NCBI RefSeq assembly: GCF_000421605.1
Contig: NZ_ATXI01000014.1
Location: 1-50,139, forward strand
Direction: 5' to 3'
Source: Thermodesulfobacterium thermophilum DSM 1276
Lineage (GTDB): Bacteria > Desulfobacterota > Thermodesulfobacteria > Thermodesulfobacteriales > Thermodesulfobacteriaceae
Length of the DNA stretch: 50,139 nt
Each line of letters begins with the position of its first letter. Positions within the stretch are counted from its first letter, which is position 1. The position numbers and the translations under genes were made by a program. Shown piece by piece: positions 23,110-38,422 of the stretch. The notes below the pieces were generated by a model that saw only the letters and a program-made list of their open reading frames with translations, ran no database searches and was not told the origin of the DNA.

Positions 23110-23154
23110 AATTTTCAATAAAAACTATAGTTTTATTTCTGTTGTTATTTGTTT

Positions 23155-24306
23155 ATGAAATATCGTCTGGCTGGATATATTACTCAAATGTTTTTAAATT
23201 CCAGAGCTAAGTTAATTTTATTTTTCACAGGATTATCCATATTTTTAGCTCTTTTAGTAGGTTGGATTTCAGCTCGTTGCACCTACCATCAGGTTTTAGA
23301 AGTAGCTACCTTGCATGTAAAGAAAGACCTAAACATGTTTGAAGTTTTATTAAACCTAAAATATCCTGGGGAATGGCAGGTATTAGATGGTAGGTTGTAT
23401 AAAGGGAAGGTTTTGATCAACGACAACTTTGAGATAGTAGACTTTTTTGAAAAAGCAACAGGAAACACCGCTACTGTGTTTCTAAACGATACAAGGGTCA
23501 CCACTACCATAAGAAATGAATTAGGTGCCCGTATCATAGGAACTAAGGTAAGTCCTCCTGTTGCACAAAGGGTTTTACAACAGGGAAAAGAGTATTATGG
23601 TATCGCAGACATATTAGGAGAAAAATACATCACTGCCTACAAACCTATAAAAGATCCCTCTGGTAAAATTATCGGGATTCTCTATACCGGTATCTCACTT
23701 AAAAAGTTTACCCCTATTCAACAAAAATTCTATCAAAATATAATTATTCCTTATATAGGCTTGGTACTTCTGTTTATCTTGAATGGATTTTTAATCTTTT
23801 TCTGGGCTTGGGCTGTTAATCTTTCTATCATAGACCCTCTTACTAAAGTTTACAACAGAAGATATATAATTCACAAGATCAAACAAGAAATTTTAAAAAA
23901 ACAAACTCAAAAGGATTACGAATTTTCTGCAATCCTTATAGATGTTGACGATTTCAAGAAGATAAATGACACCTACGGACACGCAGAAGGAGATAAAGTT
24001 TTAAAAGAATTGACTAAAATCATTAAGCAAAGAGTAAGAAATCAAGATATCCTTGGTAGATGGGGAGGTGAAGAGTTTATCCTTGTTTGTCCAGAGACTC
24101 CTTTAGAAAAAGCAAAAATATTAGCTGATCATCTAAGAAAGTTAATCGAAAAACATAACTTTGGTGAAAAAAAACTTAAGATTACCGCTTCCTTTGGGGT
24201 TACTTCTTGGAAAGACGAGGATACCTTAGATATCTTTTTAAACAGACTTGATAAAGCTTTATATCAGGGTAAAATCAAAGGTAAAAACCGTATTGTGATC
24301 TTTTAG
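23155..24306 (+). CDS. Membrane diguanylate cyclase with extracytoplasmic Cache sensor
   Basis: 383 aa from the ATG at 23155; a TTG two codons earlier is less likely. One membrane helix lies near residues 20-40, then a periplasmic single-Cache-like domain (about 45-190, with YKPIKDPSGKIIGILYTGI at its end), a second helix (about 195-220) and a GGDEF domain. The active site is GGEEF. An inhibitory RxxD site (RNQD) sits exactly five residues before it, so product inhibition by c-di-GMP is likely. The enzyme should make c-di-GMP from two GTP in response to an external small molecule, which cannot be predicted. No clear ribosome site. GAPOR-like gene follows 50 bases later. Confidence 0.85.
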   Translation: MKYRLAGYITQMFLNSRAKLILFFTGLSIFLALLVGWISARCTYHQVLEVATLHVKKDLNMFEVLLNLKYPGEWQVLDGRLYKGKVLINDNFEIVDFFEKATGNTATVFLNDTRVTTTIRNELGARIIGTKVSPPVAQRVLQQGKEYYGIADILGEKYITAYKPIKDPSGKIIGILYTGISLKKFTPIQQKFYQNIIIPYIGLVLLFILNGFLIFFWAWAVNLSIIDPLTKVYNRRYIIHKIKQEILKKQTQKDYEFSAILIDVDDFKKINDTYGHAEGDKVLKELTKIIKQRVRNQDILGRWGGEEFILVCPETPLEKAKILADHLRKLIEKHNFGEKKLKITASFGVTSWKDEDTLDIFLNRLDKALYQGKIKGKNRIVIF

Positions 24307-24356: not shown

Positions 24357-26306
24357 ATGCTTGAATATAAAGTCTTGTGGATAGATGTAAACCAAAAAAC
24401 TTGGGAAATCAAAAATTATCCGATCCCACCTTATTTAGGTCCTGTAGATATAGGAATACGAATACACTTAGAAGAAGTAGAAAGCTTTAAGGAAGAGGTT
24501 TTTTCTGGAGCCAACGTACTTTTTTTAGGGACTGGACCTTTTGCTGGAGGGAAAATTTTTGGTACCCACAGGTTGGTAGCGGTATTTAGGAGTCCAGAAA
24601 GTCTTGGATTACATGTATCAGAAATAGGAGGGGTGGGCTATAAGTTCATAAGGTCTGGAGTTAATGGATTTGCCATTTTTGGTAAAAGTCCTGAACCTGT
24701 CGTTATTTTTGTAGAGGGACGTACTGAAGGGATAAACCTAAGGTTTGAAACAATAGAAAAAGAAAAACTTGAAGAAATTTATGACAACTATCATGGATAT
24801 AAAGGAACTTATGCCCTCACCAAATATCTTTTAGACAATTACTCAGAATTTTTCGTTAAAAATAGAGCAAGGGCTGTAGTAGTTGGGGAAGGAGCTTTTT
24901 CTACTAAACTTGGGGCTTTGGTATCGATAGACGTAAACCCTGAGAAAAAAGATCTTATCCAAGGAAGCGAAGACTTTGCAGGAAGGGCAGGTCCAGGGTC
25001 AGTTTTAGCTCAAGCCCATGGGGTGGTTGGGCTGGTGGTAGGTGGAGAGGCCAGTCCCCAGGTTCCTGAGGTTTTCTCAGATGTTAAAAGATTTGCCAAG
25101 TTTTTTCAAGAAGTTACCTCCAGAGATTATACTTCAGCAGTAAACTCAGCTACCTTAAAGTATAGATTTGACCCTAAAATAGGAGCAGGAGGCACCTTTG
25201 GGTCTAACTATCCTTATTACAAAGAATGGTTGCCTACCTTTTGCTTTAACAGTATATACCTTAAAAGAGAGTTTCGAAAAAAATTAGCTGACCTTATCCT
25301 TTCTTATTATTGGAAACCCTTTAAAGAGCTTACCTTTGAACAAGCTAAAACCTGGAAAACCTGTGGAGAACCCTGTCCGGTAGCTTGTAAAAAGGTATGG
25401 AAAGGGAAAAAGGTAGACTACGAACCTTTTCAAGGGATTGGGCCTTTAATAGGAGTTTTTAACTTAGATTTAGCTTCAAAAATCGTAGACCTGATAGACC
25501 AAAAAGGGCTTGATGCTATAGAAGCAGGACATGTGGTGATGTTTTTACTTGAGGCTATACAAAAAGAACTTCTAACCTGCGAAGAAGTAGGAATTTCAGA
25601 GCCTCCTTGTTTGGATCCCTTTAAACTAAATCCTAAGGCCTGGGAAGTTAACGGGAAATTAGCTATCGAGATTATAGAAGGATTAGTTAGTAAGAAAAAC
25701 AAAATCTTATCGCTTATCGCAGAAAAAGGTCTAAGACAGGCGATTAACTACTTAGAAAATCTCTATGAAGACAGAATTACCTCAGTAGGTCTTTCTTTTA
25801 GGGATTTAGCCCTTTATCAACCTTATGGAGAAGATGGTTATATGACCCCTAATTTTTATTGGACCAAAGGATTCCTTATTCCTATTTTTATAACAGGTAA
25901 GTACTGGACAGATTACTGTTTAGCCTTTACTTCTCCTGAAGAGTTTGCTAAACAGGTCTATCAAAGAGCCATCAAAGAAATTGGCCTTTCCAACGCAGCT
26001 TTTTGCCGTTTCCACAGAGGTTGGGCCGAAAACCTCATTCCATCTCTTTACCAACAATTAGGAATATCTGAATATGAAGAAAAGATGAAAGAGGTTTATC
26101 GAAACATAGGAATCTATAGTCTTAAGGCTAAAGCTTTACCTCAACCGTTAGAAAGTGAAAAAGCCACAGATATATTCTGTACCTTAGCAGAAGAGTTAAG
26201 CCTTTCTAAATGGTACACTAAGTTTACTAAAAATAAAAAAAGAGCCTACTTAGAATGGTTTGAAAGGTTTTATCTTACCTATCTTTCTTTAGTAGGCATT
26301 TCCTAA
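24357..26306 (+). CDS. Tungsten-type oxidoreductase, glyceraldehyde-3-phosphate:ferredoxin oxidoreductase (GAPOR)-like
   Basis: 649 aa of the aldehyde:ferredoxin oxidoreductase family. It appears to belong to the GAPOR branch, which oxidises glyceraldehyde-3-phosphate to 3-phosphoglycerate and reduces ferredoxin, bypassing GAPDH and PGK. The cluster motif is TCGEPCPVACKK, that is C336-x3-C340-x3-C344. AOR and FOR have C-x2-C-x3-C, while the Pyrococcus enzyme, as I recall it, has this wider spacing and similar flanks. The fourth Cys is C550 in FCRFHRGW. Length also fits GAPOR (about 650) better than AOR (about 605). Other family-like blocks are GTFGSNYPYY, DYEPFQGIGPL and ITGKYWTDY. AGAGGG precedes the ATG. 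The substrate is inferred. Confidence 0.8.
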   Translation: MLEYKVLWIDVNQKTWEIKNYPIPPYLGPVDIGIRIHLEEVESFKEEVFSGANVLFLGTGPFAGGKIFGTHRLVAVFRSPESLGLHVSEIGGVGYKFIRSGVNGFAIFGKSPEPVVIFVEGRTEGINLRFETIEKEKLEEIYDNYHGYKGTYALTKYLLDNYSEFFVKNRARAVVVGEGAFSTKLGALVSIDVNPEKKDLIQGSEDFAGRAGPGSVLAQAHGVVGLVVGGEASPQVPEVFSDVKRFAKFFQEVTSRDYTSAVNSATLKYRFDPKIGAGGTFGSNYPYYKEWLPTFCFNSIYLKREFRKKLADLILSYYWKPFKELTFEQAKTWKTCGEPCPVACKKVWKGKKVDYEPFQGIGPLIGVFNLDLASKIVDLIDQKGLDAIEAGHVVMFLLEAIQKELLTCEEVGISEPPCLDPFKLNPKAWEVNGKLAIEIIEGLVSKKNKILSLIAEKGLRQAINYLENLYEDRITSVGLSFRDLALYQPYGEDGYMTPNFYWTKGFLIPIFITGKYWTDYCLAFTSPEEFAKQVYQRAIKEIGLSNAAFCRFHRGWAENLIPSLYQQLGISEYEEKMKEVYRNIGIYSLKAKALPQPLESEKATDIFCTLAEELSLSKWYTKFTKNKKRAYLEWFERFYLTYLSLVGIS

Positions 26307-26382: not shown

Positions 26383-26472
26383 AAAAAAAAATCTGAAAAA
26401 CTAAAGTTGACTTTTTTCGCAAAAAACTGTAATCTTTTTTAATTAAAGATAATACAAACAGGAGGTATGCGT

Positions 26473-27393
26473 ATGTTTAACCTCAAAGACCTTAGTAGAA
26501 GGGATTTTTTAAAGATATGTACAGTAGTTACCGCTACGATGGGGCTTCCTGTTTCTATGGTAGAAAAAGTAGAAGCAGCCCTGAAAAAGGGTCCTAAACC
26601 TACGGTAGTATGGTTGCACTTTATGGAGTGTACCGGATGTACCGAATCACTTCTCAGGTCTTCACATCCACCTTTAGGAAGGTTTTTGCTTGAAATGGTT
26701 AACCTTGAGTATCATGAAACCTTGATGCCAGCTGCTGGTAAGCAGGCAGAAGAGGTGCTTCATGAAACCATCAAAACCTATAAAGGAGAATACATCTGTG
26801 TGGTAGAAGGAGCTGTTTCTACCAAAGATGGTGGTATTTACTGTAAGGTTGGTGGTAGACCTGTTATAGAGATTTTAAAAGAAGTGGCAAAGGATGCTAA
26901 GCTGGTTATCAACATGGGTACCTGTGCTGCCTTTGGAGGAGTACAAGCAGCTAAACCCAATCCTACAGGTGCGGTAGGTGTGCCTCAGGTTATCGGAAGT
27001 GAAAAGGTAATCAACATCCCTGGTTGTCCTCCTAACCCCTACAACTTCTTTGCTACCATCAGTTATATCCTTACCTTTGGCAAACTTCCTGAATTAGATA
27101 AACTTAGAAGGCCAAAGTTTGCTTATGGTAGGCTTATCCATGACCACTGCGAAAGAAGGCCCCACTTTGATGAAGGTCGTTTTGCTGAAGCCTTTGGTGA
27201 CGAAGGACACAAACAGGGTTATTGTCTCTACAAAGTAGGATGCAGAGGGCCTATTACCTATGCTAACTGTGGTGTGATCAAATTCTGTGATGTAGGTGCC
27301 TGGCCGGTAGGAGCTGGTCACGGATGTATGGGATGTGTTGAACCAGACTTTTGGGATGAAATGTCCCCCTTCTACAAACCTATTATGGAATAA
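26473..27393 (+). CDS. hynA: Periplasmic [NiFe] hydrogenase small subunit (Tat-exported)
   Basis: 306 aa from the ATG at 26473, which sits 7 bases after GGAGG; the ATG at 26467 is only 1 base from it. The twin-arginine signal is LSRRDFLK, followed by a hydrophobic stretch to about residue 32. The proximal cluster has the ordinary ECTGCTES and MGTCAAFGG motifs, not the extra Cys of O2-tolerant enzymes. IPGCPPNPYN and HDHCERRPHF follow, and the medial-cluster end reads PVGAGHGCMGC. An additional Cys (C272, KFCDVG) sits where an Asn is usual. There is no C-terminal membrane anchor, so the enzyme should be soluble in the periplasm, most likely passing electrons to c-type cytochromes. Confidence 0.93.
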   Translation: MFNLKDLSRRDFLKICTVVTATMGLPVSMVEKVEAALKKGPKPTVVWLHFMECTGCTESLLRSSHPPLGRFLLEMVNLEYHETLMPAAGKQAEEVLHETIKTYKGEYICVVEGAVSTKDGGIYCKVGGRPVIEILKEVAKDAKLVINMGTCAAFGGVQAAKPNPTGAVGVPQVIGSEKVINIPGCPPNPYNFFATISYILTFGKLPELDKLRRPKFAYGRLIHDHCERRPHFDEGRFAEAFGDEGHKQGYCLYKVGCRGPITYANCGVIKFCDVGAWPVGAGHGCMGCVEPDFWDEMSPFYKPIME

Positions 27394-27437
27394 AAAAATA
27401 CTAACATCTAAAAAAAGATTACAAAGGAGGTTAACTT

Positions 27438-29135
27438 ATGGCTAAAAGGATTACCATAGACCCCATAACCAGGATAGAGGGACATTTAAGAATAGATGTA
27501 GAGGTGGATGGAGGCAAGGTAGTAAATGCTTGGTCTTCTGGGCAGATGTGGAGAGGTATTGAAATCATCCTCAAAGGAAGAGACCCAAGGGACGCCTGGG
27601 CCTTTACTCAGAGGTTCTGTGGTGTGTGTACAACCGTTCATGCTATGGCCTCTGTTAGGTCAGTAGAAAACGCCTTAGGAATGGAAATTCCTTTAAATGC
27701 TCAGTATGTAAGAAACATCATCCTTTGTGCCCATGCTTTGCATGACCACATGGTCCATTTTTACCATCTATCAGCCCTTGACTGGGTAGATATAGTATCT
27801 GCTTTACAGGCAGATCCCAAAAAAACTGCTGAGCTTGCTCAGAGCCTGTCTCATTGGGAAGGAAACTCTGTTACTTATTTTAAAAAGGTAAAAGAAACCC
27901 TTCAAAAGTTTGTAGAAAAGGGACAGATTGGACCTTTTACCAATGGATACTGGGGACATCCACAGATGAAACTTCCTCCTGAAGTAAACTTACTTGCTGT
28001 AGCTCATTACTTAACTGCCTTAGACTATCAGTTTGACGCTAACAAAGTGGTTGCTATCTTTGGAGGTAAAACCCCTCATATCCAAACGTTGGTAGTAGGT
28101 GGAGTAGCTTTAGCCATCAATCCTGACAACTTAGCTACCCTTAACGCAGAAAGGTTAGATTATGCCCGTGAATTACTCATGAAAGTAAAACATTTTATCC
28201 AAGAGGTTTATCTTAACGACGTGATTGCTGTAGGATGTCTATACAAAGACTGGTTTAAAATCGGAAGAGGAGTTGCTAACTACTTAGCAGTCCCAGACCT
28301 TCCTCTTGACACCAAAGGAACAGTATTTGACCTCCCTGGTGGAACCATCTTTAACGGAGACTTGTCTACTTATACCCCGATCAAAAGCTTTAACGATCCT
28401 TATTTTAGAGACAACGTTACCGAAAGTGTAGCTCATTCCTGGTACAAAGATACTGGACCAAAACATCCCTGGCAGGGCGAAACCGTTCCTAATTATACTG
28501 ACTTCAATCCTAACGGAAAATACAGTTGGTCTAAGGCTCCTCGTTTTAAGGGTGAACCTATGCAGGTTGGACCATTGGCTCAAGTATTGGTGGGTATCGC
28601 TGCCAAACATGAATTAACGATGAAGTGGGTCAACTATGCGGTAGAAAAAGCTAAAGCTTTAGGTGTCAACTTGACGGTGGATGACCTTCACTCCACGATG
28701 GGAAGACATTTAGCCAGAGCCATCAGAGCAGCCATGCTTGCTGACCTTGCCCTCAAACATCTAAACCTTCTTGAGAAAAACATCGCTAAAGGTGACTATG
28801 CTATCTGGAATAAAGTTGAATTTCCTGCCAAAGAGATTAAGGGTGTTGGTTTTCATGAAGCCCCAAGAGGAACGCTTTCTCACTGGGTGGTTATAGAAAA
28901 AGGTAAAATCAAAAACTATCAAGCAGTTGTTCCATCTACCTGGAACATGAGCCCAAGATGTGAAAAAGGAAAACGTGGTCCTTATGAAGAGAGCTTGATC
29001 AATAACCCCGTGGTTGACCCTGAAAAACCACTTGAGGTGTTAAGAACCATCCATTCCTTTGACCCATGCATAGCCTGTGCTGTCCATCTATTAGATGCCA
29101 AAGGTAAGGAAATCAAAAGAGTAAAAGTACTCTAA
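27438..29135 (+). CDS. hynB: Periplasmic [NiFe] hydrogenase large subunit
   Basis: 565 aa catalytic subunit for H2 oxidation or evolution. Both nickel-binding ends are present: RFCGVCTTVH near residue 60 and DPCIACAVH near the C-terminus. The His is followed by a 15-residue tail that the maturation endopeptidase should remove after cofactor insertion. It has no signal of its own and would be co-exported with the small subunit. An AAAGGAGG ribosome site precedes the ATG. The length and motifs fit the uptake group 1 enzymes of sulfate reducers. No protease gene or cytochrome b subunit follows; a terminator does. Confidence 0.95.
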   Translation: MAKRITIDPITRIEGHLRIDVEVDGGKVVNAWSSGQMWRGIEIILKGRDPRDAWAFTQRFCGVCTTVHAMASVRSVENALGMEIPLNAQYVRNIILCAHALHDHMVHFYHLSALDWVDIVSALQADPKKTAELAQSLSHWEGNSVTYFKKVKETLQKFVEKGQIGPFTNGYWGHPQMKLPPEVNLLAVAHYLTALDYQFDANKVVAIFGGKTPHIQTLVVGGVALAINPDNLATLNAERLDYARELLMKVKHFIQEVYLNDVIAVGCLYKDWFKIGRGVANYLAVPDLPLDTKGTVFDLPGGTIFNGDLSTYTPIKSFNDPYFRDNVTESVAHSWYKDTGPKHPWQGETVPNYTDFNPNGKYSWSKAPRFKGEPMQVGPLAQVLVGIAAKHELTMKWVNYAVEKAKALGVNLTVDDLHSTMGRHLARAIRAAMLADLALKHLNLLEKNIAKGDYAIWNKVEFPAKEIKGVGFHEAPRGTLSHWVVIEKGKIKNYQAVVPSTWNMSPRCEKGKRGPYEESLINNPVVDPEKPLEVLRTIHSFDPCIACAVHLLDAKGKEIKRVKVL

Positions 29136-29235: not shown

Positions 29236-30363
29236 CTAAACTGTTTTTCTGTATTTAAAATAGGCTAAACAGGCCCCTTCAGAAGAGACCATACAAGGAC
29301 CTACAGGATTTTGAGGGGTGCAGGCTTTACCAAAAAGTTTACAGTCAATAGGCTTGTTAAGCCCTTTTATAACCCTTCCACACAAGCACTGAGGATGTTC
29401 TTTAGAAGAAGGAAGAGATAGATTAAAAAACTTTTCTCCGTCTAAGGATTCATACTTAGGTGCTATGGCATAAGCGCTGTTTGGTATCTCACCTAAACCT
29501 CTCCAAGGGAAAGAATCCCTTATCACAAAAACCTCTTTTAGAAGTTCTTGTGCTTTTAAGTTGCCCTGTTTATCCACCGTACGGGTATACTGAATTTCTA
29601 CCTCACATCTTCCCTCTTTCTTTTGTTTAACTATCAGATAAACCGCCTGCAACAGGTCTAAAGGCTCAAAACCTGAAACCACGATTGGGGTGCCATATTT
29701 TTCCACTATCGGTTGATAGACCTGAACTCCGGTAATGGTACTTACATGTCCTGGACCTATAAAAGCCTCTATAAAAGGTTTTTCTTCACTTTTTAAGAGG
29801 TAGTCAAGGACTTCTAAGGCTAAAATATGATTTGATACTACCCAAAGGTTTGAAATACCTAATTGATGGGCTTGTTTGATAAGAACTGCGGTGTGAGGGG
29901 CGGTGGTTTCAAACCCTATGGCAAAAAACACTACTTTTTTATTAGAAAACTCCTGGGCTATTTTTATGGCTTCCAAACACGAAGAAAGGGGGCGCACCTC
30001 ATAGCCTTCAGCCCTTAAGGTTAAAAGACTAATCTTGTTAGAACCAGGAACTCTCATCAAGTCTCCATAGGTACAGAGGATAACATCAGGTAATTTGGCA
30101 AGTTCAATGGCTAAATCTACTCTTTCTAAAGCAGTTACACATACCGGACAGCCTGGGCCATGTAAAAAATTGATATAACCTTTAAGGAGCTCATCTAAGC
30201 CGTTTTTCAAGATAACATGGGTATGCCCCCCGCAGAACTCCATAATGTTTACGGGGTTACCTAAACTCTCTACCTCTCTTTTAATGAGGTCCGCTAAAAC
30301 TTTTACCCTTTGAGGGTCTTTAAAGCTATTCCACGTTTGGTTGAGTGAGCCTGAGTATTTCAT
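29236..30363 (-). CDS. hypD: Hydrogenase maturation factor HypD
   Basis: 375 aa [4Fe-4S] scaffold on which HypC, HypE and HypF assemble the Fe(CN)2CO group of [NiFe] hydrogenases. Motifs are MEFCGGHTH (residues about 41-49), GPGCPVCV (about 70-77), GFETTAPHTA, and the C-terminal Cys set (CLCGRVIKG, C-x-FGKAC). The start overlaps hypC by 38 bases, so translation is coupled. Other hyp genes (A, B, E, F) are not in the window. Confidence 0.96.
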   Translation of the reverse strand: MKYSGSLNQTWNSFKDPQRVKVLADLIKREVESLGNPVNIMEFCGGHTHVILKNGLDELLKGYINFLHGPGCPVCVTALERVDLAIELAKLPDVILCTYGDLMRVPGSNKISLLTLRAEGYEVRPLSSCLEAIKIAQEFSNKKVVFFAIGFETTAPHTAVLIKQAHQLGISNLWVVSNHILALEVLDYLLKSEEKPFIEAFIGPGHVSTITGVQVYQPIVEKYGTPIVVSGFEPLDLLQAVYLIVKQKKEGRCEVEIQYTRTVDKQGNLKAQELLKEVFVIRDSFPWRGLGEIPNSAYAIAPKYESLDGEKFFNLSLPSSKEHPQCLCGRVIKGLNKPIDCKLFGKACTPQNPVGPCMVSSEGACLAYFKYRKTV

Positions 30364-37492: not shown

Positions 37493-38422
37493 TTACTTAA
37501 TAGACAAATACGAAAGCAGTTCTTTACAGTGTTCGGCACACCTTTTTAAAGCCTCTTGTTCTTCAGGCAAGAGTTTGAATTCTATCACCCTTTCTACCCC
37601 TTTTCTTCCTAAAACCACAGGTACTCCCAAAAAAACCCCTTCGATTCCATATTCCCCTTCTAAGTAAACAGAGCAGGTTAACACCCGTTTTTCATCTTTT
37701 AAAATACTTTCAACCATTTCTATCACAGAAAGGCCTGGTGTGGTGAAAGCACTACCTGTTTTAAGGTAAGAAACAATTTCTCCTCCACCAAACTTAGTCC
37801 TATAAACTATCTCTTCTATTTTTTCCTTAGGAAGAAGTTCGGTAACAGGAATCCCAGACACATTGGCCAATCTCACCAAAGGAAGCATCAGATCTCCATG
37901 AATTCCCATCACCAGGGCTTGAACGTCCTTAGGACTTACCCCTAAAGCCTCTGCTAAAAAATAACGATAACGAGCTGAATCAAGCACTCCTGCCATTCCG
38001 ATAACCCTCTCCTTAGGGAACCCAGTTACTTTAAAAGCTACATAAACCATCGCATCAAGAGGATTAGAAACTACGATTACTATGCTTTGAGGAGCATATT
38101 TTTTAACATTTTCTGCGCAAGAACTTACTATTTTTTCGTTAATGCTTATCAGATCTTCCCTTGACATCCCTGGTTGTCTTGGCTTACCAGCAGTTATCAC
38201 CACTACGTCTGCCCCTTCAAGGGCTGAAAAATCCTCTGTACCCCATATTTTTCCTGAAAATCCAAAAAGGGGAGAACTTTGCACCAAATCTAAAGCTTTA
38301 CCTTTAGCAAGGTCTGGGATTATATCGATAAGTACAATCTCACGGGCAGTATTTTTAACCATCGCCCAATGGGCACAACTTGTCCCAACTGCACCTGCTC
38401 CAATGATAGCCAACTTACTCAT
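37493..38422 (-). CDS. mdh: Malate dehydrogenase (LDH-like)
   Basis: 309 aa NAD-dependent dehydrogenase. The Rossmann motif is GAGAVGTS. The substrate loop GKPRQPGMSREDL carries the Arg that marks malate rather than lactate dehydrogenases. The catalytic pair is in SNPLDAM and GIHGDLMLPL. It interconverts malate and oxaloacetate. Its stop lies 11 bases before the PIN-TRAM start, and its start overlaps the HD gene (ATGA). Location in a DNA-repair/RNA operon rather than with other TCA genes is unusual but may be only operon packing. Confidence 0.94.
   Translation of the reverse strand: MSKLAIIGAGAVGTSCAHWAMVKNTAREIVLIDIIPDLAKGKALDLVQSSPLFGFSGKIWGTEDFSALEGADVVVITAGKPRQPGMSREDLISINEKIVSSCAENVKKYAPQSIVIVVSNPLDAMVYVAFKVTGFPKERVIGMAGVLDSARYRYFLAEALGVSPKDVQALVMGIHGDLMLPLVRLANVSGIPVTELLPKEKIEEIVYRTKFGGGEIVSYLKTGSAFTTPGLSVIEMVESILKDEKRVLTCSVYLEGEYGIEGVFLGVPVVLGRKGVERVIEFKLLPEEQEALKRCAEHCKELLSYLSIK

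Follow-up and report, generated by a model that had tools for sequence, protein, structure and literature searches.

The gene and its product

An ORF on the forward strand of the window (the whole stretch of DNA analysed, 50,139 nucleotides of Thermodesulfobacterium thermophilum DSM 1276) runs from ATG to stop and specifies a protein of 649 amino acids (Table 1). It is situated between a GGDEF diguanylate cyclase gene and the genes for the small and large subunits of a [NiFe]-hydrogenase (26467-29135), which are followed on the opposite strand by hypD; a malate dehydrogenase gene lies farther along. A first-pass annotation, made from the letters of this DNA, had remarked upon a length of about 649 residues and upon the nearby mdh and hydrogenase, and had likened the product to glyceraldehyde-3-phosphate:ferredoxin oxidoreductase (GAPOR) rather than to AOR or FOR. 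Our results agree with it on each of these points. A promoter scan gave a signal no higher than in shuffled sequence.

Table 1. Features of the window and the GAPDH genes discussed in the text
Feature	Position	Strand	Basis
GGDEF diguanylate cyclase, upstream of GAPOR	23149..24306	+	profile search; synteny
GAPOR-clade tungsten-type oxidoreductase, 649 aa	24357..26306	+	NF040818, AFOR_N + AFOR_C, tree
First three [4Fe-4S] cysteines, CGEPCPVAC, residues 336-344, with the GAPOR-clade one-residue insertion	25362..25388	+	alignment
Fourth cluster cysteine within CRFHRGW, residues 550-556	26004..26024	+	alignments
[NiFe]-hydrogenase small subunit with Tat signal	26467..27393	+	TIGR00391, TIGR01409; synteny
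[NiFe]-hydrogenase large subunit, Hyb-type	27438..29135	+	profile + family search
HypD hydrogenase maturation protein	29236..30363	-	TIGR00075
Malate dehydrogenase	37493-38422	-	
Long type I GAPDH with insertions, 407 aa	L135 9788-11011 (window's genome, C9)		
Altered gap1	L139 11699-12700 (G100)		
Altered gap1	L141 12085-13086 (G327)		

Three of the cluster cysteines are spaced C336-x3-C340-x3-C344 and the fourth, C550, lies in FCRFHRGW, just as they had been read in the first-pass annotation. In an alignment of 47 proteins (39 GAPOR-clade rows, including the window protein, and 8 of the AOR/FOR/WOR type) the four [4Fe-4S] cysteine columns are kept in 39/39 and 8/8 rows, respectively. Only the GAPOR-clade rows show the CGEPC insertion and CRFHR; the spacing in the AOR-type rows is C-x2-C-x3-C. 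Certain Thermoproteota GAPORs (L088, L089, L092 and L094) carry CGDFGCxxxC, that is C-x4-C-x3-C, which is one residue wider still.

Pfam motifs PF02730 [AFOR_N, E 3e-27] and PF01314 [AFOR_C, E 4e-13] were both identified above cut-off; the same AFOR domains occur in GAPOR and AOR, and Pfam was dropped as the sole discriminator. NCBIfam NF040818 [GAPOR_Arch] matched the protein at 469 bits over its full length (E 2.1e-140, profile positions 2-650 of 654), which excludes a chance resemblance. The curated cut-off of this profile, 1300 bits, set for closer relatives, is not reached by the window protein. All 54 Thermoproteota genomes in which the profile found a match likewise fall short of it, as do the Pyrobaculum oguniense orthologue, at 460 bits, and M. 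jannaschii, and for this reason we did not treat it as clade-defining; it marks a subfamily narrower than the GAPOR clade. The genome's own AOR scores only 64 bits against GAPOR_Arch, and at its N-terminus alone. This second AFOR enzyme (599 aa, L001 313-3318) shares the AFOR domains but differs in having C-x2-C-x3-C and in keeping Tyr427 and His448. It adjoins a cytochrome bd oxidase subunit II-like gene, in a sulfate reducer.

Glu356, a second-shell residue, is conserved in 39/39 GAPOR-clade rows, while the position of AOR His448 is a gap in all 39. Thr280 is invariant within the clade, and the alignment places it one column off AOR Thr243. The retained Glu356 and missing His448 agree with the pattern given for GAPOR in a 2025 review, in which the Glu is kept and the AOR Tyr/His region replaced (PMC12096430). 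Because AFOR domains and fold are held in common, one might suppose that a broad-range AOR/FOR/WOR-type enzyme, or a member of the bacterial GOR clade of Caldicellulosiruptor, had been misread as GAPOR. The GOR of C. bescii (clade 20) resembles our protein in being a bacterial enzyme proposed to oxidise glyceraldehyde-3-phosphate with ferredoxin, yet it belongs to an unrelated clade, has a WorS small subunit and retains all four AOR second-shell residues (PMC13328260, PMC12096430). That complete second shell does not occur in the window protein, which lacks the His448 position; no gene for a WorS ferredoxin-like small subunit lies beside it, the neighbours being the GGDEF protein and the hydrogenase small subunit; and a fully supported long branch divides it from the AOR-type proteins. 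A misreading of this kind is extremely improbable.

An AlphaFold model (mean pLDDT 73) has the AFOR fold, with VIA-align Z scores of 29-32 to AOR, FOR and WOR5 over 350-379 residues; the surroundings of the cofactor are modelled with low confidence (pLDDT below 50 at residues 264-304, 328-347 and 484-523). A PDB sequence search gave weak matches to WOR5, FOR and AOR, with no GAPOR chain among them. With the archaeal GAPORs (P. furiosus PF0464, clade 23; P. aerophilum; M. maripaludis MMP0945) the protein shares full-length similarity, CGEPCxxxC, CRFHRGW, the missing AOR histidine, and the occurrence of the large subunit alone, without an adjoining gene for a small one. It differs from them in its host, a bacterial sulfate reducer, and in its position beside a [NiFe]-hydrogenase which, from its sequence, should be periplasmic.

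Distribution, phylogeny and the hydrogenase neighbourhood

The bacterial host assumed in the first-pass annotation is Thermodesulfobacterium, in a genus group with five further genomes carrying the same locus. The closest protein is that of T. hveragerdense (96% identical), the remaining named members of the genus showing 65-67% identity, and the first matches beyond it are to Ignisphaera (53%) and Thermoproteus/Pyrobaculum (43-48%). Among 395 genomes searched, GAPOR was present in 6/6 of Thermodesulfobacterium and was not found in other genera of the family (0/6 genomes) or in the rest of the order (0/5). A second GAPOR-like group (L025-L039) occurs in 15 other Desulfobacterota genomes among the 395, all outside the order; it had been missed by a contig search which used one protein as query and returned close relatives only. 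These proteins resemble the GAPORs in their GAPOR_Arch scores (295-364 bits), CGEPCxxxC and CRFHR, and differ in forming a separate long branch (stem 1.16-1.38) adjoining other archaeal proteins, L065-L067, and in having been acquired independently. Some have CRFHRQW, CRFHRNW, CRFHRAW or CRFHRMW in place of CRFHRGW. The first-pass annotation had associated GAPOR with Thermococcales and methanogens; it does belong to these, but is not confined there, being common also in Thermoproteota (54 genomes with matches). In two of the latter (L014, L015; Pyrobaculum sp. WP30 and Thermoproteus sp. AZ2) the GAPOR frame is broken by a frameshift, a stop or an assembly error.

Our GAPOR trees, which were built without Thermococcales and methanogen GAPORs and bacterial GOR, place the protein beside the Ignisphaera-type and Pyrobaculum/Thermoproteus GAPORs, at a great distance from the AOR/FOR/WOR-type proteins, an outcome in keeping with the first-pass assignment. 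When the tree is rooted by AOR-type proteins the GAPOR clade stands separate (SH-aLRT 100, intervening branch 1.94). In the more careful tree the Thermodesulfobacterium proteins group together (100/100) and join an Ignisphaera-containing archaeal group (100/99); these 6 bacterial and 5 archaeal rows then join the Pyrobaculum/Thermoproteus group (100/99). The Thermodesulfobacterium rows thus nest inside Thermoproteota, and this nesting is best explained by transfer from archaea; the genus apparently gained its GAPOR from them. A constraint setting all archaea apart from bacteria was rejected (delta lnL 93.7, p-AU 1.2e-38), as was a single bacterial clade (p 9.7e-39), from which it follows that bacteria acquired the gene at least twice, once in Thermodesulfobacterium and once in other Desulfobacterota. 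An unrooted GAPOR tree alone would leave the direction unfixed, so that the bacterial clade might be ancestral or have been the donor to archaea. With the AOR-type outgroup, however, the bacterial rows fall within the archaea, and among the genomes searched the gene occurs in one genus of its order; we consider this direction very improbable.

In every Thermodesulfobacterium genome examined, three complete single-contig genomes among them, GAPOR lies directly upstream of the hydrogenase small and large subunit genes and the opposite-strand hypD. Its upstream flank differs between genomes, the GGDEF gene adjoining it in only part of the genus and so lying outside any conserved unit. Sister genera possess the hydrogenase without GAPOR, which, set against the synteny of the genus, identifies the insertion site. 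The archaeal affinity of the nearest relatives outside the genus might raise the question of archaeal contamination of a bacterial assembly, but the flanking genes are bacterial, and a synteny common to the genus at 65-96% protein identity refutes it; the likelihood is negligible.

The hydrogenase itself has changed. Its small subunit is 308 aa in the window, about 55 aa shorter than the 364-368 aa of sister genera, and the extra cytochrome-b-like gene which there follows the large subunit is missing in Thermodesulfobacterium. Taken together these differences suggest that the genus has lost the membrane anchor of its hydrogenase. Direct electron exchange between GAPOR and the hydrogenase was set aside as unlikely since the small subunit bears a Tat signal and the hydrogenase would be periplasmic.

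Loss and decay of the canonical GAPDH

The first-pass annotation had suggested a search of the rest of the genome for gapdh and pgk. The contents of the assembly (1.79 Mb, 46 contigs) were read from targeted searches, which found PGK and one divergent type I GAPDH of the long form (gap2), below the TIGR01534 cut-off; no counterpart of the sister genera's canonical GAPDH remains. In those genera the operon consists of a small acetyltransferase-like gene, gap1 (canonical GAPDH, 334 aa), a PEP-synthase-like gene (~1385 aa), gap2 and a NusB-like gene. Canonical GAPDH above cut-off was found in 12/15 sister-genus genomes, the three without it being 64-89% complete, versus 1/6 in Thermodesulfobacterium, where T. 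hydrogeniphilum (G180) alone has a normal gap1. In three genomes, the window's own and those of two relatives with complete sequences (G028 and G065), gap1 is cleanly missing, the acetyltransferase-like gene running straight into the PEP-synthase-like gene in an otherwise colinear operon. The long GAPDH is kept in nearly all family genomes, adjoining the PEP-synthase-like protein (~1385-1390 aa).

Two further members of the genus (G100 and G327) have a gap1 with substitutions at T150, C153, D181, T208 and G209 (classical numbering), residues which are kept in 11/11 other aligned gap1 proteins. Of these, T150, T208 and G209 form part of the inorganic-phosphate site. The shared gap1 stem of these two genomes is 0.38 changes per site versus 0.087 for T. 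hydrogeniphilum, to which they are 67-68% identical in gap1 and 90-91% in gap2, the latter showing no such jump. The altered proteins retain C149 and H176 and are of canonical size. Their frames are still open and they are 79% identical to each other, and perhaps therefore re-purposed rather than dead.

Judged from the sequences, the gap1 losses are two independent events, both within the genus that gained GAPOR. They make a strong circumstantial case for a takeover of the gap1 reaction by GAPOR, and, there being only two events, not a statistical one. Since a second, long GAPDH remains, the loss of the canonical enzyme could be plain redundancy. One might go further and suggest that in bacteria this GAPOR-clade enzyme has shifted to another (phosphorylated) aldehyde, the disappearance of gap1 being coincidental: the stem of the Thermodesulfobacterium GAPOR clade is moderately long (0.39), and the long GAPDH, which in alignment retains its catalytic residues, could serve both directions. 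Against this, the residues specific to the GAPOR clade are kept across bacterial and archaeal proteins, sister genera without GAPOR keep both GAPDHs, and decay of gap1 coincides on both occasions with possession of GAPOR. We regard such a shift as unlikely.

Proposed function and significance

It is highly probable, in our opinion, that this gene encodes a horizontally acquired GAPOR of the archaeal clade which oxidises glyceraldehyde-3-phosphate to 3-phosphoglycerate with ferredoxin, and which has displaced the canonical GAPDH in catabolism. The donor would have been a thermoproteotal archaeon and the recipient the ancestor of Thermodesulfobacterium, where the gene would have come to lie immediately before the [NiFe]-hydrogenase genes, to be inherited vertically thereafter. 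The enzyme most likely acts upon D-glyceraldehyde-3-phosphate in one direction only, at a putative bis-pyranopterin tungsten centre, with two electrons presumably passing through a single [4Fe-4S] cluster to ferredoxin. The catabolic direction apparently moved from canonical GAPDH to GAPOR; one branch of the genus then lost the canonical gene altogether, and in another its product lost the phosphate-binding residues. Gluconeogenesis would be left to the long GAPDH and PGK. P. furiosus displays a split of this type, its GAPOR oxidising to 3-phosphoglycerate with ferredoxin and GAPDH plus PGK being used for gluconeogenesis.

The archaeal tungstate transporter WtpA was searched for in the window's genome and not found. 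A substrate-binding protein with TupA-like motifs is encoded there in one operon with a permease and an ATPase (motif and gene order); this operon is likely to function in tungstate uptake. Targeted searches also revealed PFK and an alpha-glucan phosphorylase, so that stored glucan can supply triose phosphate. To our knowledge Thermodesulfobacterium organisms are not noted for growth on sugars, which makes stored alpha-glucan the likely source of the substrate. The GAPOR of M. maripaludis is thought to act under non-optimal growth (PMC4902934), and by analogy a starvation role would be plausible in Thermodesulfobacterium.

Members of this genus use H2 and do not ferment. One could imagine that GAPOR works mainly in reverse: growing on H2 and CO2 or acetate, the cells would use low-potential ferredoxin to convert 3-phosphoglycerate back into glyceraldehyde-3-phosphate. 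Were this true, the ATP of the PGK step would be spared, and the fixed position beside an H2-uptake hydrogenase would be meaningful; we nevertheless hold it to be improbable and favour the oxidative direction.

Current reviews attribute ferredoxin-linked oxidation of glyceraldehyde-3-phosphate to GAPOR in Archaea and to the unrelated GOR in Bacteria (PMC12096430), and no link between Thermodesulfobacterium and GAPOR was found in the open-access literature. Against this clean division, the archaeal GAPOR clade is thus found in bacteria at least twice. A generic aldehyde oxidoreductase annotation would hide a glycolytic step. Thermodesulfobacterium offers a legible record in which the standard GAPDH was apparently deleted or disabled after the arrival of the newcomer, in effect a natural experiment on GAPDH replacement. 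The physiological role of GAPOR may be tested here in bacteria with differing GAPDH sets, T. hydrogeniphilum keeping the canonical enzyme and the close relatives of the window's organism being without it.
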